NCBI RefSeq assembly: GCF_003123745.1
Contig: NZ_QETB01000001.1
Location: 124,001 to 188,000 of the forward strand
Origin: Ancrocorticia populi
GTDB taxonomy: Bacteria > Actinomycetota > Actinomycetes > Actinomycetales > Actinomycetaceae
Direction of reading: 5' to 3'
Length of the DNA: 64,000 nt
The notes beneath the pieces were generated by a model. The model did no database searches, was not told where the DNA came from, and worked only from the letters and a program-made list of their open reading frames with translations. The translations under genes were made by a program, and so were the position numbers. This document shows, piece by piece, positions 788 to 54,927 of this stretch; the stretch's first letter is position 1, and each line of letters begins with the position of its first letter.

Positions 788-1659
788 ATAACGAAAAGTA
801 TGTAATCCGTGCGGGTCAAACCGCACACGACGAATATGCCCTTGACCTTTCGCCAGAAATCGCAGGTTGGGAATGGTCTTCACTCCGCGTCGTTGCCCTC
901 GAGGCTGGCGCGAGTGTGACGGTTCCAGGCGGCGAGGCCGAGTTCTTGGTCCTGCCACTTCAGGGAGGATGCGCTGTTGAGGTTGACGGGCGCAGCTACG
1001 AGATTGCTGGCCGTGAATCCGTGTTCACAGATATCACTGACTACATCTACATCCCTCGCCACACGGATATCCGCGTGAGCTCAAAGGAAGGTGGGCGCTT
1101 CTCCCTCCCGGGTGCCAAGGCAACTAGGGATTTGCCGGTGCGATACTGCCCACGCGATGAAGTTCAGGTTGGCCTCCGAGGTGCTGGACCGTCCTCACGC
1201 CAGGTGAACAACTATGCGCTCGGCAATGATCTGGAAACTTCGCACCTGCTTGCAACCGAGGTGCTTACGCCAGGCGGCAACTGGTCTTCTTACCCTCCGC
1301 ATAAGCACGATGAGCACAACGATGTTGAGCGCGTCCTCGAAGAGGTCTACTACTACGAAGTGCGTCGCGGAGATAACGACACCGAAGGTTTCGCTCTTCA
1401 ACGGATCTATCCTTCCCCGGGCCACGATATTGATGTGTGCACCGAGGTTCGAGACGGAGATATCGTTGTGATGCCCTACGGTTACCACGGCCCATCTGTT
1501 GCTGCTCCGGGCTACGATCTCTACTACCTAAATGTCATGGCTGGCCCGGCTGAGGATTCGGTATGGCTAATGACTGACGATCCGCACCACACATGGGTAC
1601 GCCAAACATGGGAGACCCAAGAAGTAGATTCACGCCTGCCCATGACCCCAATGGAGTAG
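784..1659 (+). CDS. iolB: 5-deoxy-glucuronate isomerase IolB
   Basis: This 291-residue cytosolic cupin-type protein isomerises 5-deoxy-D-glucuronate to 2-deoxy-5-keto-D-gluconate in myo-inositol breakdown. Diagnostic stretches are NWSSYPPHKHDEH and EEVYYYEV, which carry the metal-binding His/Glu set of the second cupin domain, followed by MPYGYHGPSVAAPGYDLYYLN and a tail DDPHHTWVRQTW. Length is normal for the family. It starts inside the stop of the preceding aldolase-like gene and is followed after 65 nt by iolD, so the three are probably one operon. Confidence 0.95.
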   Translation: MNNEKYVIRAGQTAHDEYALDLSPEIAGWEWSSLRVVALEAGASVTVPGGEAEFLVLPLQGGCAVEVDGRSYEIAGRESVFTDITDYIYIPRHTDIRVSSKEGGRFSLPGAKATRDLPVRYCPRDEVQVGLRGAGPSSRQVNNYALGNDLETSHLLATEVLTPGGNWSSYPPHKHDEHNDVERVLEEVYYYEVRRGDNDTEGFALQRIYPSPGHDIDVCTEVRDGDIVVMPYGYHGPSVAAPGYDLYYLNVMAGPAEDSVWLMTDDPHHTWVRQTWETQEVDSRLPMTPME

Positions 1660-6759: not shown

Positions 6760-7767
6760 ATGACTGTTCGTATTGGACTCATTGGTGCTGGCGGCATGGG
6801 CCGCGCACACGTAGATCGTATTGAGAACGACCTAGCTGGCGGCAAGATCGTGGCCGTTGCTGATATCAACATTGAGGGCGCGAAGGCCGTTGCCGAACCG
6901 CTGGGTGCCAAGGCCTACGGTACGGGCGCGGAGCTGATCGCTGACCCGGATGTGGACGCGGTTCTGATTGCCACCTTCGGCAAGGTGCACGCACCGGACG
7001 TTATCGCTGCAATCGAGGCTGGCAAGTACGTACTCTCCGAGAAGCCGCTGGCAACCACCCCCGAGGATTGCATCGCCATTATGGAGGCGGAGCAGAAGGC
7101 CGGCAAGCATCTGGTCACTGTTGGCTTCATGCGCCGTTTTGACAAGGGCTACAACGAGATGCGCGATGTTCTCAACAGTGGCGATCTTGGCTACGCTACC
7201 CTAGTTCACTGCCGCCATCGCAACCCCTCCGTCCCGGAGAACTACACCACTCGGAACATGATTGACGATACGGCGATTCACGAGATCGATACGTGCCGTT
7301 ACCTGCTGGGCGAAGAGATCGTTTCGGTCCGTGTAGATACTCCGCGCGCCACCTCCAAGAAGTTTGATCACCTGCAGGATCCTCTTGTCCTGGTGGCCAA
7401 GACGGAGAATGGCATCCTTATCGACGATGAGGTTAACGTCAATATCCAGTTTGGCTACTCCATTGAGTGTGAGCTGGTTATGGAGGCCGGCACGGTCCGG
7501 CTAACCGATCAGGAGCACTCGGCCATTCGCACTGGACAGGTTGATAAGCACGCAATTTGTCAGAGCCACGTGGATCGGTTCCAGGACGCGTTTAATCAGG
7601 AGTTCCAGCAGTGGATTCGCGCTGTTGAGCGCGATGAGCACACTGGTTCATCGTCGTGGGACGGCTACGCAGCAACCTGCGTTGTGGATGCAGGTCTGGA
7701 ATCCCTCGAGAATGGCGGTAAGGAAGTTGCTGTCAAGATGATTGAGAAGCCAGCGTTCTACGCCTGA
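6760..7767 (+). CDS. iolG: Inositol 2-dehydrogenase IolG (copy 1)
   Basis: This 335-residue Gfo/Idh/MocA enzyme oxidises myo-inositol (or an isomer) to the 2-keto form with NAD. The Rossmann start IGLIGAGGMGRAH is clear. The catalytic triad K95 (SEKPLAT), D170 and H174 (DDTAIHEID) has the same Lys/Asp/His spacing known from Bacillus IolG. The true start is the ATG at 6760 after AGAGAAGGA; the frame runs 23 codons further upstream but that part overlaps the previous gene and has no family match. The motif MRRFDKGY is shared with the paralog at 10882. Confidence 0.9.
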   Translation: MTVRIGLIGAGGMGRAHVDRIENDLAGGKIVAVADINIEGAKAVAEPLGAKAYGTGAELIADPDVDAVLIATFGKVHAPDVIAAIEAGKYVLSEKPLATTPEDCIAIMEAEQKAGKHLVTVGFMRRFDKGYNEMRDVLNSGDLGYATLVHCRHRNPSVPENYTTRNMIDDTAIHEIDTCRYLLGEEIVSVRVDTPRATSKKFDHLQDPLVLVAKTENGILIDDEVNVNIQFGYSIECELVMEAGTVRLTDQEHSAIRTGQVDKHAICQSHVDRFQDAFNQEFQQWIRAVERDEHTGSSSWDGYAATCVVDAGLESLENGGKEVAVKMIEKPAFYA

Positions 7768-31474: not shown

Positions 31475-32845
31475 ATGGCCAGCTTCACGAAATCGTTCAA
31501 GAACACGGGGTACCTGCAAAGCTCCGTAAATCTTTTACTGTTCTTCATGTCATGGGGGATCTGGTGGTCCTTCTTCCAGCTGTGGCTGAAGAAAGACATC
31601 GCCGAGGGAGGCTTGGGGTTTACCAACACGCAAGTTGGAACCGTCTACTCCATGAACTCGCTGGCAACCTTGATCCTCATGTTCCTGTATGGAACGTTTC
31701 AGGACAAGCTTGGTTACAAGCGCACAATCCAGATCTTCATCGCGGCGATCTCCGCGCTGGTAGGCCCCTTCGTCATCTTTGTGTATGAGCCGCTTCTGCA
31801 CAGCAACTTCATGTTCGGTGCGGTGCTCGGGGCGATTGTTCTGTCCGCCGGATTCATGGCCGGTGTGGGCCTACTTGAGGCCCTGGCCGAGCGCTTCTCC
31901 CGCCTCTACAACTTCGAGTATGGCCAGGCCCGCATGTGGGGATCGTTCGGATATGCCATTGTTGCTCTCATGGCGGGATTCCTCTTCACCATCGATCCCA
32001 AGATCAACTTCTGGCTGGGTTCGGCCATGGGGCTTTTGAACCTCCTCATCGTGGTGTTCTGGAAGGCGCCCGCACCAGAAGGAAAGGATTCGGCCGAGCA
32101 AGTAGTGGAAGAAGCCACAACCCCGAGCATTGGCGAAATGGTAGGCCTCCTAAAGATGCCGGCGCTCTGGCTCGTGATTGTGATCGTGTTCTTCACATGG
32201 ACTTTCTATACGGTGTTCGATCAGCAGATGTTCCCAGATTTCTACACCGGGCTGTTCGATTCAAAGGAAGCTGGTGAGCGCACCTACGGCGTGCTCAACT
32301 CCGTGCAGGTCTTCTGCGAGGCGGCGATGATGGGTGTTGTCCCCATCATCATGCGCAAGATCGGCGTCCGGAACACGCTCCTGTGTGGTTTCGCTGTGAT
32401 GACACTGCGGATCTTGGGTTGCGCGGTGTTCGCAGACCCGATCGTCATCTCCTTCGTCAAGATGTTCCACGCCCTTGAGGTTCCACTGTGCATCCTGCCC
32501 GTGATGCGCTACTTCACCCTGCACTTCAATCCCGCGATGTCCGCAACGCTCTACATGGTGGGCTTCCAGATAGCATCCCAGCTTGGCAACGTGGTGCTCT
32601 CCCCAGTGCTCGGAGCCCTCAATGATTCCCAGGGATACCGCTTCACCTTCTTCGTGATCTCCGCCGTGGTTGCATGCTCAGCGGTATTCGCCTTCTTCAC
32701 GCTAAAGAAAGACGATCAGCAGGTCCTCGGGGATCCGTTCATCCGCGAGACGAGGAAGCCCAAAGTAGAGGCGCCTTCGGACATCACGGCACCTGTGGCT
32801 CCTTCCGTTCCCGCCACTCCAGAAGATCCCACCGAAACTAAGTAA
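31475..32845 (+). CDS. Oligosaccharide:H+ symporter (OHS-family MFS), probable sucrose permease
   Basis: This 456-residue 12-helix transporter resembles LacY/CscB-type symporters: the opening SSVNLLLFFMSWGIWWSFFQLWL, LGFTNTQVGTVYSMNS, and YGQARMWGSFGYAIVALMAG are in the positions typical of that family. The ATG at 31475 has AAGGAAGGAACT upstream; codons back to 31418 are in frame but read through likely leader. A proline-rich cytoplasmic tail follows the last helix. The GH32 gene begins 40 nt downstream, so imported sucrose or a fructo-oligosaccharide is hydrolysed inside the cell. Confidence 0.88.
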   Translation: MASFTKSFKNTGYLQSSVNLLLFFMSWGIWWSFFQLWLKKDIAEGGLGFTNTQVGTVYSMNSLATLILMFLYGTFQDKLGYKRTIQIFIAAISALVGPFVIFVYEPLLHSNFMFGAVLGAIVLSAGFMAGVGLLEALAERFSRLYNFEYGQARMWGSFGYAIVALMAGFLFTIDPKINFWLGSAMGLLNLLIVVFWKAPAPEGKDSAEQVVEEATTPSIGEMVGLLKMPALWLVIVIVFFTWTFYTVFDQQMFPDFYTGLFDSKEAGERTYGVLNSVQVFCEAAMMGVVPIIMRKIGVRNTLLCGFAVMTLRILGCAVFADPIVISFVKMFHALEVPLCILPVMRYFTLHFNPAMSATLYMVGFQIASQLGNVVLSPVLGALNDSQGYRFTFFVISAVVACSAVFAFFTLKKDDQQVLGDPFIRETRKPKVEAPSDITAPVAPSVPATPEDPTETK

Positions 32846-32885
32846 CGTCAGATACAACACGCCACATCCCAAAGGAGAGAGTGAC

Positions 32886-38875: not shown

Positions 38876-38920
38876 ATGTTCACGTGAACATGTGTGTGGC
38901 CGCAAATGTTTACGTAAACA
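38876..38920. promoter_or_regulatory. Tandem palindromic operators before the GH30-like gene
   Basis: ATGTTCACGTGAACAT (38876-38891) and TGTTTACGTAAACA (38907-38920) are perfect palindromes with central CG. Their centres are 30 bp apart, about three helical turns, suggesting cooperative binding of a LacI-type dimer pair. A TTGACA at 38835-38840 could be the -35. Confidence 0.7.
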
Positions 38921-38984
38921 CTCGTCGAAGGTATCTGGCCTACACAGTGATGTGCGCTGGATTTCATCCACCGAAGGAGAACCA

Positions 38985-41900
38985 ATGACGTGGTCTCGAA
39001 GAACCCACCGGGCCTCATCGAAAAAGCCAAGATTGGCGCGAACAAGCAAGAAAACAGGTGCGGCGCTCACGGGCGGGGCGTTGATCGCCTCAGCCTTCGC
39101 GGGGCTAGCGATTCCCGCAACCGCGGCTCCGGTAGCCATCGCCCCCGCCGCAAGCGGCGTTACCATCACACCGAATCCTTCCTATAAGAGCGATCCCTTC
39201 GAGGGCTGGGGCACCAGCCTCGTCTGGTTCGCCAACGCCACTGGAGAATACCCCGATGAGCTGCGCGAGGACATGCGGGATAAGCTCTTCAGCGATGAGG
39301 GTCTGAACCTCAACATCGCCCGCTACAACGTGGGTGGCGGAGACGCCACGGACGTTCCGCCATACCTGCGCGCAGGAGGCGCCGTTCCCGGTTGGTGGAA
39401 TACCGAGATTAAGGGCGACGACGGCGAACTAGTTTCCACTGAATATGCTGACCGTCAGGCCTACCGTGATGCTTGGGACGGCGACAACCCGGAGCACTAC
39501 AACTTTGATGCCGATCAGGGCCAGCAGTGGTGGCTGAAAAACACTGCAAAAGATGTGGATCATTTCGAGGCGTTCTCAAACTCCCCTCCCTACTTCCTCA
39601 CTGAGAGCGGCTTTGTCTCCGGCGGCATCAACAACGCCACGAGCGTGCAGCTGGCACCCGAGAACATGGAGGCCTTCGCCGATTACATGGTGACCGTGGT
39701 TGAGCACCTCGAAGATACATACGGCGTGGACTTCAAGACCATCGATCCGTTCAACGAGCCGAACACCAATTATTGGTCTGCAAAGCTCGGGCCCGATGGT
39801 TGGCCAACCAGCGCCTCCCGCCAAGAGGGCGCCCACATTGGCCCCAAGGCTCAGGACCAGATGATTCAGGTTCTTGCCAATCGGCTGGCCGAGGACGGCA
39901 CTAAGACTGATGCCGTGATCTCCGCGATGGACGAGACTAACCCGGGGACCTTCATTACTAACTTCGACGCATACAGCGCCGAGTCCCGAGAGGCGGTTGG
40001 CCAGTACAACGTTCACTCCTATGGTCAAGGCAGCAGCCTCGGCGCTCGCGACATCGCCAAGGCCGAAAGCACTCCGTTGTGGATGAGCGAGGTAGAGGGC
40101 GATTGGGCTAGCGCGAGCGGCTTCGACGTTCTTGATATGGACAATGGCCTGGGCCTGTCCAAGCACATCGTTGATGACCTCCGTAATCTCGAGCCCACTG
40201 CCTGGGTGTTCTGGCAGCCGGTTGAGGATACCTACAACATGGAGAAGACAGAGAAGCTCAACTGGGGCACTGTGTTCATCGATTTCGATTGCGATGACGA
40301 GGGTAACTCAGCGCGTCGCCTCGCGGATGGCGATGAGGATCCTTCGTGCAAGGTGCAGACCAACGCCAAGTACAACACGTTCCGTAACTTCAGCCATTAC
40401 ATCCTGCCTGCCGATCAGCTGATCCCCAGCGGGAACAACAACGCGACCGCAGCGGTAACGCAAGATGGAAACGGCATGAACGCCGTGTACGTGAACGATG
40501 GCAGCAGCTCTGAGTCCGTTACCATCGATCTGTCTGGTTTCGAGAACTTCAGCGGAGCAACAGTTACCCCGGTTGTCACCACCGCACCCGAGTCCGAGGC
40601 TACCATCGAGGATAATGCGCTGGTTGAGGGAGAGGGCGTCGTCGTCGGCGAAAATGGTAAGGCAACACTACAGGTGCCCGCCAAGTCCGTAACCACGTTC
40701 GAAGTTGAAGGCGTATCGGGCGTTTCCGAGGACGCGCCTCAGTTTGTGGACGGGGATACCTACCAGCTGACCGGTGTGGGATCGGGCCTCCCGCTTTCCG
40801 CGAAGTCTGACGGTGGCGTGGAGATCAACGAGCTGAGCGCGGATACCGCGGCGCGTCAGACGTGGACCGTGACTTCCGTGGACGGTGCCGGCACGAACCA
40901 TCAGGAGATCGTGCTGACCAACGCTGAAGGTCAGGTGCTCACCGAGGTGGACGGGGATGTCAAGGCGGTTAAGCCCGATGGCGATCCCGCGGCCAACGCC
41001 TCCATGCGCTGGATTCCTTCCACGCAGAATGGCAAGGATTTCTCCCTGCAGCCCTCGAATAACCGCAATGCTCTGGACATTAACGGACAGGAAAGTACGG
41101 CGGGTTCGCGGGTCGGGCTATACCAGCATTCGGGCGGAAGCCATCAGCGGTGGATCCTTCAGGACACCACGCTGGAAGGGTTTAAGCCCATCACGATCAA
41201 CGCCGAGGCCGGCGTGGCACCCGTTCTACCCGAGACCGTGACGCCGATCTACGCGTACGGTGTGGGCCAGAACGTTGACGTCACCTGGGATACCAAGGGC
41301 GTTGACTGGGATACCGTGGGGACCGCCCGGCTCAAGGGTTCCGGTGTTGACGGCTATGGGCGCGAGTTCGATAACGCTGAACTGACAGTGGAAATCGGTG
41401 GGGCAACCTTCTCCGATCCCACCTCGATGACGGTTCGCGTGGGAATCTCTCAGGACATCGTGGCCGCGCAGGCCCCGACGGTTGTTCAGGGACAGTTGGG
41501 GGTCTCCGAGAACCGCTTCGATATGGACGTGGAGTGGGACTGGAGCGGCATTGACGATGCCGCCTTCGCCAAGACCGGCGTGGTTAAGGTCCCAGGTACC
41601 GCAACCGCTGCTGGCGGATCGGTTGACGCCGTGCTCAATGTGCTGGTGACCGAATCGATGGACGTGAACATTGCTCCAGACTCAACGCCCAACGCGACAA
41701 GCACCGAGTCTGGCTACAGCGTTGCGGACACCATCAACGGCGTGACAACCGATAAGGCGTGGTCCAACTGGAAGAGTGGGAGCCAGAATGCCTCGGATAC
41801 GCTCACTTACGAGTGGGATGCCGATAACGAGCTGACATCGGCGAAGATCTTCTTCTTGAAGGACGGGACGGATAGCTGGCCCTCTGAGATTACTCCCGAG

Positions 41901-42863
41901 TATCGGGACCTAGAGACGGGCGAGTGGACGGCTCTAGACCCCGTTGAGGTTTCCGAAGGCAAGGACGATCCAGCGCCCACCGTGAAAATCGATCTGGGCG
42001 TGCACACCGACGCCGTGCGGTTTGTTATGACGGCGCGCGATAACACGCACATGATCGTATCCGAGACCGAGGTGTATTCACCCGATGCCGGCCCGGCCTC
42101 ATACGCGGATCTGGCACGGCTGACCGTTGGTGGCAAGGACGTTGAAGGGTTCGATCCTGAGACGCTCGATTACGAGGTGGAATACGAGGGGACTGATTAC
42201 CCCACGGTGAATGCGGTGGCGCTGGATAAGGATGCGACCGTGGAGATTACGCAGGCGACCGAGGATAAACCGGTGGCTACCGTTACCGTGACTTCGGCTG
42301 ATGGTGAGAATACGGCCACCTACACGGTTACGATCGATCTCGTGGATCCGCCCGCTCTTCCCAGCGTGGAGTTCACGAGCAGTGGCGAAGCACTGAACGA
42401 GGGTGCCGCAGTGTTGCCTGGTCAGGAAGTAACCGCGGTTGTCTCTGACGCCGAAGAGGGGTCCGCTGGCGAGTTCAGCTTCCACTCCGATCCCGTGGTT
42501 CTGAGCGAAGGGACGGCCAATGAGGCCGGCACCATCGAAATGTCAGGCAAGGTTCCCGAGGATGCGGCCGCTGGTGCGCATGCTCTGGTTGTGACGCTGG
42601 ATGATGAGGAGCTCGGGCGAGTAAACCTCAACGTTCAGGACGAGGATCCGGGAACTGACCCGACGGATCCGGGGACGGACCCAAGCAACCCGGGGACGGA
42701 TCCGACTGATCCAACAGATCCGTCAACCGTCCCGAGCGCAACCCAGAGTCCCGGCGATAGCTTGCCGAATACCGGAGGTAACGCCGCGCTAGCGGTTGTG
42801 GGCCTAGCGCTGGTGGCAGCGGGAGCAGCGGTTCTGATGATCCGCCGCCGCGCAACCAACTAG
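38985..42863 (+). CDS. Sortase-anchored GH30-like glycoside hydrolase, multidomain
   Basis: This 1,292-residue surface enzyme starts with a signal peptide of about 50 residues ending near AIPATAAPVA. The GH30-type catalytic region (FEGWGTSLVWFANATGEYP; FSNSPPYFLTESGFVSGG) has acid/base candidate E258 in FNEPNTNYW and nucleophile candidate E369 in LWMSEVEGD, resembling endo-beta-1,6-galactanases. Next come a ricin-like CBM13 region (about 585-720), Ig-like and discoidin-like modules, a cadherin-like beta sandwich (DYEVEYEGTDYPTVNAVAL), a DPTDPGTDP linker and LPNTG at 1260-1264 with helix and RRR tail. The substrate is probably a host or plant galactan-type glycan (inference). ATG 38985 follows GAAGGAGAACCA. 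Confidence 0.85.
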   Translation: MTWSRRTHRASSKKPRLARTSKKTGAALTGGALIASAFAGLAIPATAAPVAIAPAASGVTITPNPSYKSDPFEGWGTSLVWFANATGEYPDELREDMRDKLFSDEGLNLNIARYNVGGGDATDVPPYLRAGGAVPGWWNTEIKGDDGELVSTEYADRQAYRDAWDGDNPEHYNFDADQGQQWWLKNTAKDVDHFEAFSNSPPYFLTESGFVSGGINNATSVQLAPENMEAFADYMVTVVEHLEDTYGVDFKTIDPFNEPNTNYWSAKLGPDGWPTSASRQEGAHIGPKAQDQMIQVLANRLAEDGTKTDAVISAMDETNPGTFITNFDAYSAESREAVGQYNVHSYGQGSSLGARDIAKAESTPLWMSEVEGDWASASGFDVLDMDNGLGLSKHIVDDLRNLEPTAWVFWQPVEDTYNMEKTEKLNWGTVFIDFDCDDEGNSARRLADGDEDPSCKVQTNAKYNTFRNFSHYILPADQLIPSGNNNATAAVTQDGNGMNAVYVNDGSSSESVTIDLSGFENFSGATVTPVVTTAPESEATIEDNALVEGEGVVVGENGKATLQVPAKSVTTFEVEGVSGVSEDAPQFVDGDTYQLTGVGSGLPLSAKSDGGVEINELSADTAARQTWTVTSVDGAGTNHQEIVLTNAEGQVLTEVDGDVKAVKPDGDPAANASMRWIPSTQNGKDFSLQPSNNRNALDINGQESTAGSRVGLYQHSGGSHQRWILQDTTLEGFKPITINAEAGVAPVLPETVTPIYAYGVGQNVDVTWDTKGVDWDTVGTARLKGSGVDGYGREFDNAELTVEIGGATFSDPTSMTVRVGISQDIVAAQAPTVVQGQLGVSENRFDMDVEWDWSGIDDAAFAKTGVVKVPGTATAAGGSVDAVLNVLVTESMDVNIAPDSTPNATSTESGYSVADTINGVTTDKAWSNWKSGSQNASDTLTYEWDADNELTSAKIFFLKDGTDSWPSEITPEYRDLETGEWTALDPVEVSEGKDDPAPTVKIDLGVHTDAVRFVMTARDNTHMIVSETEVYSPDAGPASYADLARLTVGGKDVEGFDPETLDYEVEYEGTDYPTVNAVALDKDATVEITQATEDKPVATVTVTSADGENTATYTVTIDLVDPPALPSVEFTSSGEALNEGAAVLPGQEVTAVVSDAEEGSAGEFSFHSDPVVLSEGTANEAGTIEMSGKVPEDAAAGAHALVVTLDDEELGRVNLNVQDEDPGTDPTDPGTDPSNPGTDPTDPTDPSTVPSATQSPGDSLPNTGGNAALAVVGLALVAAGAAVLMIRRRATN

Positions 42864-43079: not shown

Positions 43080-43733
43080 ATGCTTCGTGTTCTCGTGGTT
43101 GATGACCATCCCCTCGCCAGAGCTGGCATGGTGGGAGAGCTCCAACGTGTGGGCGAAATTGAGATCGTGGGGGAAGCTCACGATGTTGATTCGGCCGTCC
43201 GGGCAGCGCATGAGCTTGGGCCGGATATCGTGCTGCTCGATGTGCACCTGCCGGGCGGGCAGGGCGGCGGTGGAGCCGAGGTTGTGGCGAAATGCCAAGA
43301 CCTCTACCCGGACACAAAAACCCTCGCCATCTCCGTGTCTGATGCAGCCAAAGATGTTGTGGGCGTGGTCCGGGCCGGCGCTCGCGGATACGTGACTAAA
43401 GATGTGACGGGCGAAAAGCTGGCAGACGCCGTTACCCGTGTGGCTGACGGCGATGCGGCATTTTCCGCGCGCCTAGCAGGCTTTGTACTCGATGCATTTG
43501 GGGCATCCAAGGATGATGTTGCCGAGCGGGATAACGAACTCGACCGCCTTTCCGCCCGCGAGCAGGAAGTCATGCGGCTAATAGCACGAGGCCTCTCATA
43601 TAAAGAGGTAGCCTCCGATCTGTTCATCTCAGTGAAGACGGTGGAGACTCACGTCTCCGCGGTGCTCCGTAAGCTCCAGCTCTCGAATCGGCATGAGTTG
43701 GCGCGGTGGGCGGCGGCCCGCAGGATCGTGTAG
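43080..43733 (+). CDS. NarL/LuxR-type response regulator
   Basis: This 217-residue regulator has a receiver domain with phosphoacceptor D54 (IVLLDVHLPGG) and K in YVTKDVTGEK, then a LuxR helix-turn-helix (LSAREQEVMRLIARGLSYKEVASDLFISVKTVETHV, about residues 158-193). Regulators of this type usually follow PspC-kinases directly in Actinomycetota; here it is separated from the 36482 kinase by the binding-protein and GH30-like genes. It is the best candidate partner of that kinase. Confidence 0.9.
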   Translation: MLRVLVVDDHPLARAGMVGELQRVGEIEIVGEAHDVDSAVRAAHELGPDIVLLDVHLPGGQGGGGAEVVAKCQDLYPDTKTLAISVSDAAKDVVGVVRAGARGYVTKDVTGEKLADAVTRVADGDAAFSARLAGFVLDAFGASKDDVAERDNELDRLSAREQEVMRLIARGLSYKEVASDLFISVKTVETHVSAVLRKLQLSNRHELARWAAARRIV

Positions 43734-44635: not shown

Positions 44636-47600
44636 ATGGATAGATTGGCACGGGCATCCCTCCGAAATCGGTCATTTGTAGCTCTGGTCTGTATCGTTGC
44701 AGCGATTCTGGGTGGAATCTCGATGTCATCGATGCGCCAAGAGCTCATCCCGCAGGTGGAGCTCCCTGCCGTTTCCGTTGTTGCCGTTTCCCCTGGCGCC
44801 ACCGCCGAGCAGGTGAACGAGCGCGTTGCGGGACCCATTGAGCAGCAGATGGCAACGATTCCTGAGGTGAAGGAGGCGAGTACTAATTCGTCGTCGTCCT
44901 ACGGAATGATCACCATCGAGCTGGAGTATGGTACTGACCTCTCCCGCGCCACCTCAAAGGTTGAGCAGTCTATCTCTCAGATCGAGGATTCGTTCCCTGA
45001 TGACACTACAACGCAGGTGACTTCGGGTGGTTCGTCCGATATCCCGCTTTCTATGGTGGGAGTTACGAGCGACGACGACGCACTCCAGACCGCGCAAAAC
45101 GTCCGCGGCTCCGTGATTCCCCATTTGGAGAAGATCGACGGGGTTGCCTCCGCCCAGCTGATTGGGGCACCAGAACAGCGCGTGACTATCTCTCTCAACA
45201 TGGAGAAGGCTGCAGCTGCGGGTGTGAGCGCCGATGCGATTCAGGATGCGTTGGACGATAACGGCCTTTCTGTTCCCGCTGGCACAGTCGCGGGCGATGA
45301 CCATACTCTTGACGTCACGATCGGGCAGGATATCGATTCCCTCGATGGGCTTAAGGAGATCCCACTTCTTGCCACGGATCCCCTTACGGGCGAGGACACT
45401 TCCGTAGAACTTGGCGAAGTTGCCAAGGTTGACCTGACGGGAGAGACGTCGGACCTCATGGCCCGAATTGACGGCAAACCTGCCGTTGCCATGATCATCT
45501 TCCCCACGGCCAATGCGAATATCGTGGAAACCTCGGGTGAGGTGAACGATGCGCTTGCAGATCTGACCGATATGGCGGGCGAGGGTGCCGCCTTCACGAC
45601 AATCTTCGATCAGGCGCCCTTTATCACCACGTCTATTCAGGCACTTGCTCAAGAGGGCGGCTTGGGACTGATCATGGCTGTGGCCGTGATCCTCATCTTC
45701 TTGGTTGCGGTGCGTCCCACGCTGGTGACAGCTGTTTCTATCCCGCTTTCGCTGCTACTTGCGTTCATCTTCATGAATGTCGCGGGATATTCGCTCAACA
45801 TGCTGACGCTGTCAGCGCTCATCATCACGATTGGCCGGGTGGTAGACGATTCGATCGTGGTGATTGAGAACATCAAGAGACACCTCGAATACGGCGATCC
45901 TAAGCGGCAGGCGATTCAGACGGCCGTCAAGGAAGTGGCCTCGGCGGTCACTGCTTCGACGATTGTCACCTGCCTTGTGTTTATCCCGGTCGGGTTTATC
46001 TCAGGTATGGTGGGCGAACTCTTCAAGCCGTTCGCTTTCACTGTGGTGCTGGCGATGGCCTCGTCACTGTTCGTATCGCTCACAATCGTTCCGGTTCTCG
46101 CGTACTGGTTCCTCCGCCCCTCGAAGGCCGCTCGTGCTTCTGAAGATGCAGTCAGGGCCGCACACGCCACCACCGAGGTCGTGGAGGGGCGTAGCGTGAG
46201 CGAGGCACGCGAGCGCGCCGAGCGGCTTCTAGCCGAACAGCGCGCGGCCGCCGAAGCCAAGGAAGAGAAGTCGTGGCTCCGCCGGATCTACCGGCCAGCG
46301 CTCCGCGGCACCCAGAAGCATCCAGTGATCACTTTCGTTGTGGCCGTTGCGATTCTTGCTGGCTCGGGTGCGTTGTACCCAATGCTTAAGGTGAATCTGC
46401 TGGGAGATACCGGCCAGAATATGGTGATGCTTTCGCAGGAGGCTCCGGCTGGCACAGATATGGAGTCACTGACTGATCGCGCAGCCGTTGCCGAGGAAGC
46501 CCTTGGCAACGTGGCTGGCGTCGAGTCCGTTGCCACCACTATTGGCGGCGCAGGAATGGGCCAGTCCGCCGCATCCATCTCCTACGTGGTGACAACTGAC
46601 GAGGATGCCGATCAGGAGCTCCTCACCCAGAAGCTGGAAGACGCCCTTGCTGAAAACTCCTCGGGGGATCAGACAGGATCCTCTGAGATGGAGGGAATTA
46701 CCTCCACGAACGTGGACGTCAATATTGTGGCGAACAATGAGCAGACCCTGCAGGAGGCCAACGATCAGCTATTTGAGGCACTGCAAGATACGCCCGGTGC
46801 CAAACAGGTAACTACGAACCTTTCCGCGGAGCAGCCCTCCGTCAAGGTGACAGTGAACCGCGAAGCAGCGGCCGCTGCGGGGCTCTCCGAGAATGACATC
46901 GTGGGTCTGATTGCTTCCCAGATCGTCTCCCCGTCAATCGGCCAGATCACACTGGATAATATCGACACTGATATTTACGTGAAGCTTGCAGATCCAGTGA
47001 GCAGCCTCGATGATCTAGAGAATATGGAGATCATGGGTCAGCCGATTTCGGCCTTCGCAACCGTTGAGGAAGTGGACGTTGTTCCCAGCGTTGTAACCAT
47101 CAACGGGCAACAGACGGCCACCATCTCCCTAACCCCAGAGGATTCGGACGAACTTGGTGCTCTGCGCGATAACGTGGCGGAGACGGTGGATTCCACCGAT
47201 CTACCTACCGGTGCAACCACAACGGAGGCCGGAGCGGCTCAACAGTTGGACGATGTATTCAACCAGCTTGGCTTGGCGATGGCCGCCGCGATCCTCCTGA
47301 TGTACGTGGTGCTGGTCTGGATCTTCAAGAGCCTGTCCCAGCCACTGATCCTCCTAGTCTCCATCCCGTTTGCCGCGATCGGCGCCTTCCTCGCGATGCT
47401 CATGACCAGCACGCCACTGGGCGTTTCCTCGCTGATCGGTTTGCTCATGCTCACGGGCATCGTGGTGACCAACGCGATTGTGTTGATCGATCTCATCAAT
47501 CAGTACCGCCGCCAGGGCATGTCTATGGACGAGGCGATCGATCTTGGCGCCCAACGCCGTATGCGTCCCATCATTATGACCGCCGTGGCCACGATTGCCG

Positions 47601-47908
47601 CTCTGGTCCCAATGGCGCTCGGCATCACGGGTCACGCTGGATTTATCTCCCAGCCGCTTGCGGTCACGGTGATCGGAGGCCTCATCTCCTCCACGCTCCT
47701 CACACTGGTGCTTTTGCCGGTGCTCTACCGCCTGACTCAGAAGAACGCGATCAAGGCGGAGGACTTGGAGGAAATTCCAGTAGTACCTTCCGGGCAACCG
47801 GCTGAAGAATCTGCTGAAGAACAGGCCGCAGAACCAGCTGCCGAAACAGCGCAATCGCCCTCCAAGAAGCACCGCTCCCGCAGGCGGCGCTGGTTCGGCC
47901 GCAACTAG
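44636..47908 (+). CDS. RND-superfamily efflux permease (HAE-type)
   Basis: This 1,090-residue protein has the duplicated RND layout: helix 1 then a large extracytoplasmic loop (EQVNERVAGPIEQQM), a helix block with GRVVDDSIVVIEN, then the same again (TGIVVTNAIVLIDLINQYRRQG). It ends with a basic tail KKHRSRRRR. The family exports drugs, lipids or other hydrophobic compounds using protons. No periplasmic adaptor or outer-membrane partner gene is present, as expected of a monoderm. It follows the HAD gene by 18 nt. Confidence 0.9.
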   Translation: MDRLARASLRNRSFVALVCIVAAILGGISMSSMRQELIPQVELPAVSVVAVSPGATAEQVNERVAGPIEQQMATIPEVKEASTNSSSSYGMITIELEYGTDLSRATSKVEQSISQIEDSFPDDTTTQVTSGGSSDIPLSMVGVTSDDDALQTAQNVRGSVIPHLEKIDGVASAQLIGAPEQRVTISLNMEKAAAAGVSADAIQDALDDNGLSVPAGTVAGDDHTLDVTIGQDIDSLDGLKEIPLLATDPLTGEDTSVELGEVAKVDLTGETSDLMARIDGKPAVAMIIFPTANANIVETSGEVNDALADLTDMAGEGAAFTTIFDQAPFITTSIQALAQEGGLGLIMAVAVILIFLVAVRPTLVTAVSIPLSLLLAFIFMNVAGYSLNMLTLSALIITIGRVVDDSIVVIENIKRHLEYGDPKRQAIQTAVKEVASAVTASTIVTCLVFIPVGFISGMVGELFKPFAFTVVLAMASSLFVSLTIVPVLAYWFLRPSKAARASEDAVRAAHATTEVVEGRSVSEARERAERLLAEQRAAAEAKEEKSWLRRIYRPALRGTQKHPVITFVVAVAILAGSGALYPMLKVNLLGDTGQNMVMLSQEAPAGTDMESLTDRAAVAEEALGNVAGVESVATTIGGAGMGQSAASISYVVTTDEDADQELLTQKLEDALAENSSGDQTGSSEMEGITSTNVDVNIVANNEQTLQEANDQLFEALQDTPGAKQVTTNLSAEQPSVKVTVNREAAAAAGLSENDIVGLIASQIVSPSIGQITLDNIDTDIYVKLADPVSSLDDLENMEIMGQPISAFATVEEVDVVPSVVTINGQQTATISLTPEDSDELGALRDNVAETVDSTDLPTGATTTEAGAAQQLDDVFNQLGLAMAAAILLMYVVLVWIFKSLSQPLILLVSIPFAAIGAFLAMLMTSTPLGVSSLIGLLMLTGIVVTNAIVLIDLINQYRRQGMSMDEAIDLGAQRRMRPIIMTAVATIAALVPMALGITGHAGFISQPLAVTVIGGLISSTLLTLVLLPVLYRLTQKNAIKAEDLEEIPVVPSGQPAEESAEEQAAEPAAETAQSPSKKHRSRRRRWFGRN

Positions 47909-48039: not shown

Positions 48040-49209
48040 ATGAACGATACCGCACGCCTAAGCTCCGGGCTGCGCGGTATGCGCGTGGGCGGCGGCCTAG
48101 TCTTGGGTGCGGGCTTGCTCATATTCTCGCTTGTGACCTCGGAGAGTATGGATTGGAGCCCGCTCGGCCTAGGAATCCTCTTCGGCGCCTGTGCCGCGGT
48201 GGCCTTATCGGGCCTGTTTCCGATCGTGGCGGCTTGCATGCTGGCCGTTGCCCTTCCGCTTGTGTGGTTCACTCCGGACAAGACGATGCAGCTCGGATCG
48301 CTCTCCACGTTCATCGTGCTGCTCATGTTGCTCTGGCACCGCCAGCGCGTAGCCGCCGCCTTTTTCGGTGTGTGGTATTACGTCTGGTCGGTAGTACTTA
48401 TGATCCCCACAACCACGGGGACGGAACTTATTACCGGTGCCCTTGTGTGGGCGGGCCTGATGGCGGCCTTTGCGGTTGTTGGCGAACTCCTCGGGCGCCA
48501 GCTTGTCCAAAACGAGGAGCTGGAGATACGCCGCCGTCAAGAGCTCGCCGATCAGCGGCAGGCAATTGCCCGGGAGCTGCATGACACGGTGGTGTATTCA
48601 ACCACGATGATGGTGATGCGGGCTGAGGCAGCAAAGCTCCACATAACCAAGGATCCGTCGCATCCGGAGGCGGCTCAGGCGCCCGACGCGGATTTCACGG
48701 CCGATCTGGACTTCATTGCCAACACGGGCCGGCGGGCTACTGCTGATCTGCGATCCATGCTTGCGGTGCTTCGGATGAACGATTACGAAACCGCAGATGC
48801 AGCTCAGCGCTTCACTATCCCGCAAACCTCGTTTGATCGCGTCCTAACCGATCAATCCCACAAGGTGCGCGAGGCCGGCCTCACCGTCCAGATGGCGGTT
48901 GAAGGAGATCTGGGTACGTTGCCGGAAGAGGTTGCATCTGCGCTCTCGATGATTGTCACGGAGGCGTGCTCCAACATGGTCAAGCACGCCGCGCGTGACG
49001 TCCCGGCAACGATCATGATCGAAGTCAACGAGGATGCCGTTGAAGGGGCGTTCGTCAACGGTTTGGCCACGGCACGTAGTGGCAAAGAGGGGCCGGGCTA
49101 CGGCCTTGTTGGGGTCCAAGAAAGGGCCGAGGCGCTGGGCGGAACAGTGGATATTTCCACCACCGATTCGCGCTGGATTATCCGAATCTCAATTCCGACC
49201 AAGAGATGA
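48040..49209 (+). CDS. NarL-type sensor histidine kinase
   Basis: This 389-residue kinase has about five membrane helices (residues 15-155), a HisKA_3 phosphoacceptor H181 in ARELHDTVVYST, and a HATPase domain (VTEACSNMVKHAARD, GPGYGLVGVQERAEALGG). The ATG at 48040 follows GAGGAGCGAGGG; an in-frame GTG at 47992 is the alternative. It forms a pair with the regulator that starts 3 nt after its stop and is followed by the small secreted peptide gene at 50084, a possible ligand. Confidence 0.88.
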   Translation: MNDTARLSSGLRGMRVGGGLVLGAGLLIFSLVTSESMDWSPLGLGILFGACAAVALSGLFPIVAACMLAVALPLVWFTPDKTMQLGSLSTFIVLLMLLWHRQRVAAAFFGVWYYVWSVVLMIPTTTGTELITGALVWAGLMAAFAVVGELLGRQLVQNEELEIRRRQELADQRQAIARELHDTVVYSTTMMVMRAEAAKLHITKDPSHPEAAQAPDADFTADLDFIANTGRRATADLRSMLAVLRMNDYETADAAQRFTIPQTSFDRVLTDQSHKVREAGLTVQMAVEGDLGTLPEEVASALSMIVTEACSNMVKHAARDVPATIMIEVNEDAVEGAFVNGLATARSGKEGPGYGLVGVQERAEALGGTVDISTTDSRWIIRISIPTKR

Positions 49210-49212
49210 GCA

Positions 49213-49884
49213 GTGAGCATGATGAGTGAGAGTGGGGGAGAAGCGATTCGCGTCGTCGTCGTCGATGATGATGATCTCGTACGTGAGAATATACGTACGT
49301 ACCTCGCGGGCGCGCCGGATATCGAAATCGTGGGTACGGGGGCTACCGGTTTCGAGGCGACGCGGCTAGCCGGTGATTTGGCGCCGGATATTCTCATGAT
49401 GGATATTCGGATGCCGGTCATGGATGGGATTTCCGCAGCTGAGCAGATTCGCCAGTTGTATCCGGCCGTCAAGGTTGTTTTACTGACTACTTTTGACGAC
49501 GACGACGCCATGCTCGCGGGCCTCCACGCCGGCGTTTCTGGATTTCTGCTCAAAAGCACATCGCCGGAGGATCTAGTACACGGGCTGCGGCAAGTAATGG
49601 ACGGCGGAACCGTGGTTTCCCCAGGGCCCACGGCACGGCTGGTCCGCGATTACCTCGTGAGTCCGCAGCCGACGGAGCGCATCGAGATCGAGTTTTCGAT
49701 GCGTGAGCAGGAGGTTCTGGACTTATTGTGTCAGGCCTACACGAATCAGGAGATCGCGGAGAGGCTGTTCGTGCGCGAATCCACGGTGAAGTCTCACGTC
49801 TCCTCGATCATGACAAAACTGGGTGTGAGCAGCCGCCTGAAGGTGGTTGTTCGTGCACATGAGCTTGGACTGGTGCGGCATTAG
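49213..49884 (+). CDS. NarL/LuxR-type response regulator
   Basis: This 223-residue regulator has a receiver domain with D64 (ILMMDIRMPVMDG) and K in FLLKSTSPEDL, then LuxR-type DNA binding (MREQEVLDLLCQAYTNQEIAERLFVRESTVKSHVSSIMTKLG). In-frame starts at 49213 (GTG), 49219 and 49222 (ATG) are all possible. It is paired with the 48040 kinase and may bind the dyad at 49997-50018. Confidence 0.9.
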   Translation: MSMMSESGGEAIRVVVVDDDDLVRENIRTYLAGAPDIEIVGTGATGFEATRLAGDLAPDILMMDIRMPVMDGISAAEQIRQLYPAVKVVLLTTFDDDDAMLAGLHAGVSGFLLKSTSPEDLVHGLRQVMDGGTVVSPGPTARLVRDYLVSPQPTERIEIEFSMREQEVLDLLCQAYTNQEIAERLFVRESTVKSHVSSIMTKLGVSSRLKVVVRAHELGLVRH

Positions 49885-49996
49885 GTCCGAATGACGGGCC
49901 GCGAGTCTCAAAGGGTGGGCAAATAGGGATCTTGCTGGCTCTAGTTTCGGGGGCCGAGGGCTAGTAAATGGCGCATTGGTGCGGCTCTCCAACTTT

Positions 49997-50018
49997 AGTA
50001 GGAATAGAAATTCCTACT
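49997..50018. promoter_or_regulatory. Dyad AGTAGGAAT-agaa-ATTCCTACT
   Basis: Nine-bp perfect arms separated by four bases lie between the regulator stop and the secreted-peptide gene, 66 nt before its ATG. It could be a binding site for the adjacent response regulator or a weak terminator of its gene; no U-run favours the former. Confidence 0.5.
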
Positions 50019-50083
50019 TTCGGGGGAGAGACTCGGGTGAACTGTCCGGATACTCTTTGTTTATCGGATAAAGGAGGGTTTCG

Positions 50084-50272
50084 ATGGCGAAGACTGCAGC
50101 TTTGACTGCCGCCGTTGGCTTGGTGTTGGCTGGCGCGGTTGGTCCTATTGTGGGAACTGTCGATACTGCGGTAACGGATACAAGATCTCCGGTATCGGTT
50201 ACCGAGGCGCAAATTCGGCCTATGTTCCTCTGCTCGTGGTTCCCCTACCTACGTCCGCTCTGCAAGGGTTAG
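50084..50272 (+). CDS. Small secreted two-cysteine peptide
   Basis: This 62-residue product starts MAKTAALTAAVGLVLAGAVG, a signal-like N-terminus with a hydrophobic stretch of about 20 residues, then a polar spacer and a C-terminus FLCSWFPYLRPLCKG with two cysteines nine residues apart. AAAGGAGGGTTTCG before the ATG is an excellent ribosome site and a clear terminator follows, so it is a real gene. The mature end could form a disulfide loop rich in aromatic residues. Next to a two-component pair, it may be a signalling peptide or small bacteriocin; this is inference. No family recognised. Confidence 0.65.
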   Translation: MAKTAALTAAVGLVLAGAVGPIVGTVDTAVTDTRSPVSVTEAQIRPMFLCSWFPYLRPLCKG

Positions 50273-50365
50273 CCCTCCAGAGATAAAAGAATAGGTTGGC
50301 CAACGGTTGATGGATGGGTTTTTCGGATACGCCCGTCTACCAAAGGTGCAAGGCTGATCGTCTAG

Positions 50366-50414
50366 GTGCGAGGCTCGAATGGAGCGTGAACATTCGAGCT
50401 TCGCACTGTTTTAT
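50366..50414 (+). terminator. Rho-independent terminator after the peptide gene
   Basis: A 16-bp stem, GTGCGAGGCTCGAATG with CATTCGAGCTTCGCAC (one wobble), has a 9-nt loop and is followed by TGTTTTATTT. Confidence 0.85.
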
Positions 50415-54426: not shown

Positions 54427-54927
54427 ATGATTATCGCAACACCTGTTACGCCAGACGGTCAAGTTGACCATAGCTGGGGCAAGGCCCCACGCGTGGCCAT
54501 CACTGACATTGAAGATGGAGTGGTCCAGAGCTGGGACGAACACGAGGTGGGCTGGGACGTCCTCCACGACGAGGGTGCTCATGGAAGCCACCACGCACGC
54601 ATCGTCAAGTTCCTACGCGAAAACAACGTTGATGCCGTGATTATCAACCACTGCGGCGCCCCTATGCTCAACACGATGCAGAAGATGGGCCTCATTATCG
54701 CTCTCGATGCTGAAGGGCCGGCACGCGATGTAGCCCTCAACACTTCCCCAAAGATTCAGGACATCCTTAACATGGAGGCCGGTGGCGGCTGCTGCGGTGG
54801 TGGCGAAGCTGGCGGCTGCGGATGCGGTGGCGGCGCTGCTGACGAACTGCCGGAGCTAGAGCTTGAGCCCGCGGGCGCTGGCGGCTGCGGTTGTGGTGGC
54901 GGCGGTTGCGGCTGCGGCGGCCACTAA
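54427..54927 (+). CDS. NifX/NifB-like protein with Cys-Gly-rich metal-binding tail
   Basis: The first 115 residues form the NifX-type domain (dinitrogenase iron-molybdenum cofactor family): IIATPVTPDGQVDHSWGKAPRVAI at the start and VDAVIINHCGAPMLNTMQKMG in the middle. From about residue 118 the 166-residue protein becomes a tail of Gly with CC and CGC clusters, interrupted by an acidic linker (DELPELELEP), ending CGCGGH. That is eight tail cysteines plus a terminal histidine, likely to bind a soft metal or cluster. No nitrogenase gene is nearby, so the role is metal handling or redox; the target is unknown. Confidence 0.85.
   Translation: MIIATPVTPDGQVDHSWGKAPRVAITDIEDGVVQSWDEHEVGWDVLHDEGAHGSHHARIVKFLRENNVDAVIINHCGAPMLNTMQKMGLIIALDAEGPARDVALNTSPKIQDILNMEAGGGCCGGGEAGGCGCGGGAADELPELELEPAGAGGCGCGGGGCGCGGH

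Follow-up and report, generated by a model that had tools for sequence, protein, structure and literature searches.

The three genes described here, which encode a sensor kinase, a NarL-type response regulator and a short precursor with a two-cysteine tip, recur together in related genomes and, as read from their sequences, probably constitute an autoregulated peptide-pheromone circuit that works without AgrB or a neighbouring ComQ. The features that sequence comparison shows directly are the gene set itself, a conserved operator-like element, a changing peptide tip, and covariation of this tip with the sensor part of the kinase. Positions given without a locus label refer to the window, i.e., the whole 64,000-nt stretch of DNA that was analysed (Table 1).

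Table 1. Features of the kinase-regulator-peptide locus, by position in the window
Feature	Position	Strand	Basis
Sensor kinase, HisKA_3 class	48040..49209	+	Pfam search, AlphaFold model
NarL-type response regulator, receiver + GerE	49213..49884	+	Pfam (Response_reg + GerE)
Putative upstream operator copy TCCAACTTTAGTAGGA, 2 mismatches	49988..50003	+	Motif scan
22-bp dyad across inner halves of both operator copies	49997..50018	.	Sequence
Putative main operator copy TCCTACTTTCGGGGGA, 24 bp from upstream copy	50012..50027	+	Motif scan
Possible -10 element TACTCT (TAnnnT), 23 nt past operator	50051..50056	+	Read from sequence
Ribosome site AAAGGAGG, six bases ahead of peptide-gene ATG	50070..50077	+	Sequence
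Peptide precursor, 62 aa, signal-like N-terminus, tip FLCSWFPYLRPLCKG	50084..50272	+	ORF list, homologues
Terminator hairpin, then U-rich tail	50365..50407	+	RNA folding

The locus and its kinase

The observation first made at this locus is confirmed, and it is stronger than the preliminary description had stated. Coordinates and domains agree with the NarL-type kinase and regulator pair reported there: the kinase frame, from its ATG at 48040 to a stop ending at 49209, matches HisKA_3 at E 4e-10 (its HATPase_c match scores under the curated cut-off), and the regulator carries Response_reg and GerE domains. The 62-codon gene is present with its ribosome site, and its product, whose N-terminus is signal-like both by eye and by a hydropathy filter, matches no entry of Pfam, NCBIfam or PHROGs at the thresholds applied. 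The terminator ascribed to this gene is a 17-bp stem (-30.2 kcal/mol, z -7.3) with a U-rich tail, which was picked up by folding and is absent from the output of a simple terminator scan. Hairpins 3' of the peptide gene have a common loop, GAGCGTGAA, on differing stems (in the window, at L002 1985-2023 and at L003 ~1124-1162, minus strand), as judged by folding for the window and L002 and by eye for L003.

Directly 5' of the kinase gene lies a gene for an AcrB-type RND permease (44636-47905), which is odd for a single-membrane bacterium; genome G028 also has such a permease 5' of its kinase gene (L031 374-3637), with other genes intervening. As a candidate exporter this permease was rejected, being absent from the ~2 kb seen 5' of the kinase in G231 and G038, and no exporter, protease or modification enzyme was seen beside the modules examined. 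Elsewhere in the window are a second NarL-type regulator gene without an adjoining kinase gene (43080-43730), a large GH30 protein that has a ricin-type lectin match and a C-terminus resembling an LPNTG sorting signal (38892-42860), and a NifX/FeMo-co-like protein with a Gly/Cys-rich C-terminal tail (54427-54924), a tail that its counterparts near the module in G028 and G057 do not have.

An AlphaFold model of the kinase (mean pLDDT 83.1, pTM 0.55) predicts five helices joined by short loops, and another that continues into the phosphoacceptor helix, i.e., a membrane part of about six helices without an extracytoplasmic domain. Solved structures align to the cytoplasmic part, a bacteriophytochrome first, followed by many DesK entries and DosS. 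Among the five closest kinases, leaving aside the pair from genus g29 described below, the sensor is 27-37% identical and the catalytic part 54-60%.

Recurrence of two-cysteine peptides

Searching 99 related genomes with the peptide alone returned clear homologues in two genomes besides the source (E 7.7e-9 and 3.6e-7), so that 3 of the 99, source included, fall at E below 1e-3, and 57 at E<=1. A three-row profile again found the same three genomes among 213, with 24 at E<=0.1 (weak matches at L045 and L050 were dropped after inspection), and a tblastn search of a named genome collection, which may omit the window's own genome, gave no match. Both homologues come from g29, are 45% and 39% identical to the window peptide, share with it the tip FLC[ST]WFP[YF]LRPLC, and are encoded after orthologues of the kinase and regulator. 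When the two g29 species are compared, 6 synonymous and 0 non-synonymous changes fall in the last 21 codons, versus 10 and 15 across the first 45, which makes it most likely that the gene is translated and that the tip is its constrained part.

The regulator reaches farther than the peptide. It was found at E<=1e-45 in 77 of 213 genomes of the family, and the best 30 loci were scanned with a loose filter (an ORF of 35-120 aa, at most 700 bp downstream, that starts hydrophobic and has two or more Cys among its last 30 residues). A two-cysteine-tipped, signal-like ORF lies 3' of all ten nearest regulators, which belong to g1, g5, g9 and g29 and of which the nine outside the window are 51-70% identical to the window regulator. 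In total 16 of the 30 loci passed, including 6 of the 20 beyond the top ten; the ORF that passed in G107 was dismissed as chance, and the G169 regulator has no peptide ORF within 700 bp.

We take the family to be Actinomycetaceae and genus g4 to be Actinomyces; the regulator of G110 lies at zero tree distance from that of A. israelii (NZ_JONS01000061.1). Within Actinomyces, 14 of 49 genomes hold 15 regulators of the clade, nine of them near a two-cysteine peptide and one (G140) near a peptide with a single cysteine; G113, G139 and G130 have the order regulator, kinase, peptide. Near the other five (G107, G117, G128, G145 and the second copy in G129) no peptide was found, nor was any peptide ORF found within 700 bp of eight sampled regulators of a further Actinomyces clade (G099, G110, G111, G119, G120, G126, G137, G144). 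Four loci (L298, L301, L304 and L305, from G107, G131, G121 and G122) have two sensor kinases in tandem ahead of one regulator, and in G131 and G107 both kinase motifs lie within one long open frame.

The tips diverge widely, from CIIFRAQGFSPRKIC in G231 and CTMPWTRSWRIMC in G038 to CTAVPWWIWC, CGAVPWWLWC and CQVVGWWYWC in g9 and CHNIWFWKC, CRAKVWFC and CLAIWSC in g4. By reading, 18 of the 19 two-cysteine tips have a Trp in the loop or at most two residues ahead of it, G231 being the exception. On a regulator tree of 54 rows, built by a quick method and with many open forks, presence of a peptide requires 7 changes versus a shuffled mean of 16.4 (0 of 500 shuffles as low), which shows clustering of the peptide label and not a single origin.

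Homologous small genes beside the same kinase, which the preliminary description had proposed to look for in relatives, occur in both g29 genomes, and two-cysteine-tipped ORFs accompany further regulators of the family. Its expectation that the peptide gene should stay wherever the kinase pair is kept holds at all ten of the nearest loci but not throughout Actinomyces, where none was found for 5 of the 15 regulators. Conservation across the sequences compared excludes both a chance ORF and an isolated gene.

How specific the filters are was gauged on two control sets. Of 24 regulators from other families, the best-scoring in a sample of 396 genomes of the order, one passed the loose filter, with an arginine-rich chance ORF. 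Among named NarL loci, retrieved with the regulator alignment as query (80 kept of at least 493 matches, mostly distant regulators, the regulator end set at a fixed position for most loci), four of the 80 passed, none with a convincing signal peptide. The loose filter accepts 15 of 15 known peptides tested. A strict filter was passed by 0 of the 24 outside-family loci and 2 of the 80 named loci kept of at least 493, but it misses 3 of the 15 known peptides (G038, G129, G131), and these low counts are therefore weaker evidence than they appear. The operator-like element described below was present anywhere at <=1 mismatch in 0 of the 24 and in 2 of the 80 kept of at least 493. A phage origin was considered and rejected, five peptides having no PHROG match better than E 0.09.

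An operator-like element at peptide promoters

Between the regulator and peptide genes the preliminary description had noted a 22-bp dyad. It is exact (AGTAGGAAT-AGAA-ATTCCTACT, within an imperfect inverted repeat at 49985-50030), but rather than a single operator it more plausibly marks the junction between two tandem operator copies, the second copy lying exactly 24 bp upstream of the main one. The element, TCCTACTTTYGDVGGA, starts 70-93 bp before the peptide ATG and is found with 0-1 mismatch at 10 of the 10 nearest loci; in reversed orientation it is found at four of six Actinomyces promoters (1 mismatch in G131 and G121, 2 in G129 and G106), and in G116 and G140 only at 4 mismatches. These counts are not independent of the pattern, which was read from some promoters and widened on others, reaching the form TCCTACTTTYGDVGGA once the g9 promoters and a pair of sites on contig C4 of the source genome were known (against the initial pattern these C4 sites show 2 and 3 mismatches). 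The window copy is the sole exact TCCTACTTTYGGGGGA in 2.65 Mb.

Since the element is common to all ten of these promoters, autoregulation is a natural reading; binding of the regulator is predicted from sequence, and the peptide gene is probably under its control. A simple scan found no sigma-70-like promoter ahead of the peptide gene. The position of the operator before TACTCT suits an activator, with repression also possible, and a similar spacing from operator to -10 element (22-23 nt, by eye) is seen in G028, G231 and G038. At three Actinomyces loci an operator-like site with 1 mismatch lies just 5' of the kinase gene (L298 7048, L299 6548 and L306 6353, from G107, G117 and G140). G107 and G117, where no peptide gene is nearby, might listen without speaking.

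Covariation of tip and sensor

With catalytic similarity controlled for, similarity of the tips goes with that of the sensors in a set of 18 modules (partial r 0.45, permutation p 0.0003) in which G121 and G122 contribute a catalytic part of only 100 residues, their frames ending early; omitting both leaves 16 modules with full-length catalytic parts and a partial r of 0.34 (p 0.005). Split into two halves of 9, the 18 modules give partial r 0.59 and 0.60 (p 0.005 and 0.007). All permutation p-values take modules as exchangeable; G139 is outside the kinase comparisons owing to runs of N, and G008, whose kinase frame is broken, enters the identity comparison by its sensor alone and neither covariation set. 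The leader of the same peptides shows no correlation with the sensor (r -0.07, p 0.75), and inclusion of the sensor leaves the tip without further correlation with either the DHp (-0.09) or the ATPase part (0.07, p 0.27). A control that is not clean, tip versus ATPase part given only DHp, yields r 0.36 (p 0.002).

Within g9, four species carry two tip classes, SFCTAVPWWIWC in G194 and G040 and SFCGAVPWWLWC in G008 and G196. Pairs of different class (G194-G196, G040-G196) are 69-70% identical in the sensor and 92-93% in the catalytic part, versus 87% and 92% for the same-class pair G194-G040. On either side of the operon no two species are closer than G194 and G196 (87-95% in full 150-bp windows). 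Across the membrane part (451-750 of the G194 locus) this pair drops to 72% and 67%, with G194-G040 at 85-86% and G008-G196 at 87% and 85%, so that the sensor alleles split with the tip classes, against the flanks. The nucleotides of the peptide gene show no such switch (comparison window 2401: G194-G040 84%, G008-G196 92%, G194-G008 91%, G194-G196 88%). Because a matching 2+2 split in four species has a 1-in-3 chance, and because the peptide gene does not switch, the match of sensor and tip in g9 is suggestive only.

Other sites in the source genome

The only other sites in the source genome within 1 mismatch of the widened pattern form a pair, again 24 bp apart, at G000:C4:32818 and 32842 (32818-32857, equivalent to L248 ~6819-6858), flanked by a LysM-domain gene and a gene for a 178-aa protein with no family match. 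About 650 bp past this pair are an excisionase-type HTH gene, a SAF/CpaB-like gene (so called by place and look, without a Pfam match) and a ParA-like, perhaps CpaE-like, gene. This gene arrangement is also that of cluster Mlut_14660/14650/14640 in M. luteus, which is reported to influence transformation and the expression of com genes (PMC8467076). The C4 pair near this competence-like cluster is a lead, not a result: ten other genomes lack the site at the orthologous gene. Nor does the source genome show an excess of operator-like sites (16 versus 13 control matches at up to 2 mismatches), and from neither comparison does a conserved regulon emerge. Across 213 genomes the 13-mer TACTTTYGGGGGA has 13 matches in 12 genomes, versus 11 for a reversed control; five of the 13 are at the peptide promoters that had supplied the motif, and a further match, in G231, is inside a coding frame. 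Eight further stretches with operator-like sites were rejected by eye as regulon members, the genes nearby being unrelated.

Discussion

The arrangement that the preliminary description likened to a peptide autoinducer circuit (peptide, membrane kinase, regulator and regulated promoter) gains support from the conserved operator, the tip-sensor covariation and the g9 sensor split, its function being predicted. In the circuit that we propose, the precursor would be exported by the general secretory route (Sec) and its signal peptide removed; the C-terminal two-cysteine segment (FLCSWFPYLRPLC here) would form a small hydrophobic ring by way of a disulfide, possibly once trimmed further; and this ring would be sensed, presumably by binding, by the membrane domain of the adjoining kinase. 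The kinase would then phosphorylate the NarL-type regulator, which would bind tandem TCCTACTTTYGGGGGA-type sites just 5' of the peptide gene's -35 region and, if it activates and does not repress, produce a positive feedback; it would probably also act at a few other promoters. Released peptide would carry the signal from cell to cell.

It is this last step that a first alternative denies. An exported peptide that stays at the membrane of its producer could tune that cell's own kinase up or down and convey nothing between cells, and gene order, operator and tip-sensor covariation fit such feedback equally with a pheromone. We consider it unlikely, since by itself it offers no reason for the large change of tips between lineages or for exchange of sensor alleles between species. 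More unlikely again is that the product is a small bacteriocin or toxin, its gene induced by a kinase responsive to envelope stress or to that same peptide: a mere output would not be expected to covary with the sensor, as the tip does, and neither an immunity gene nor a dedicated export gene lies beside the modules whose flanks were listed, even though the peptide is short and aromatic with two cysteines, and NarL-type kinases without an extracytoplasmic domain do include envelope-stress sensors (LiaS is among the best matches, far under cut-off). Least likely, a kinase that senses something unrelated might control the peptide as one output with another cell-surface function, which would accord with an operator indicating only probable control by the regulator and with the inferential footing of peptide-kinase binding, but not with a sensor that partially correlates with the tip and not the leader, nor with the g9 sensor split along tip classes.

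The pheromone circuit can be extended into a broader picture, which as a whole we regard as doubtful. It would be a system running through the Actinomycetaceae, Actinomyces included, in which Sec-exported disulfide rings, formed without a dedicated maturation enzyme, are read inside the membrane by a NarL-class kinase that has no extracytoplasmic domain; species would move between communication groups by swapping sensor alleles, and receivers without a peptide would persist in some genomes. In the source genome the circuit would also act on the cluster whose counterpart governs competence in M. luteus, because the only other 24-bp operator pair lies ~650 bp from it.

Peptide quorum sensing is well worked out in Bacillota and, to our knowledge, hardly so in high-GC Gram-positives. 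A review of quorum sensing in Actinobacteria agrees in tone, and the portion consulted treats gamma-butyrolactones, LuxR homologues and, in general terms, cyclic or modified peptides (PMC4748050); density signalling is shared with the present proposal, and that portion mentions no module of this kind. Nor did searches of the open-access PMC literature turn up a paper that, judged by title or abstract opening, describes such a module. Such a compact unit, in which a kinase, a regulator and an operator are joined by a self-contained two-cysteine peptide, would amount to a private language of Actinomyces and its relatives that is open to testing; it would offer natural allele pairs for work on specificity and a ligand that is easily synthesised.

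Among known systems, the LiaRS and MadRS NarL pairs share the kinase and regulator architecture and are among the best NCBIfam matches, with scores far under the cut-offs (MadS 42.9 of 500 bits, LiaS 38.5 of 450, MadR 139.2 of 300); in contrast to them, the module here has a linked two-cysteine peptide gene. The agr system (AgrBDCA) combines a small ring peptide, a multi-helix kinase without an extracytoplasmic domain, autoinduction and specificity groups. All four are proposed here too, but the regulator is of GerE type and not LytTR, and the ring would be closed by a disulfide where that of agr is a thiolactone. AgrB (PF04647) was found in 0 of 15 module-bearing genomes, a search of uncertain sensitivity given that 14 control genomes yielded only 3 weak matches, none over the cut-off.

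ComP and ComA of the ComQXPA system belong to the HisKA_3 kinase and NarL-type regulator classes, and the tryptophan of ComX is modified (prenylated). The system in Bacillus subtilis has a short, changing pheromone peptide that defines communication groups (PMC4408185, PMC4008528). No ComQ-type isoprenyl transferase was found by Pfam among the 14 window proteins from 38.9 to 56.8 kb. Here, too, a HisKA_3 kinase and a NarL-type regulator stand beside a short, changing, Trp-containing peptide; unlike ComQXPA, the present module has a signal-like precursor with a two-cysteine tip and the order kinase, regulator, peptide, and among the genomes sampled it is found only in the Actinomycetaceae.
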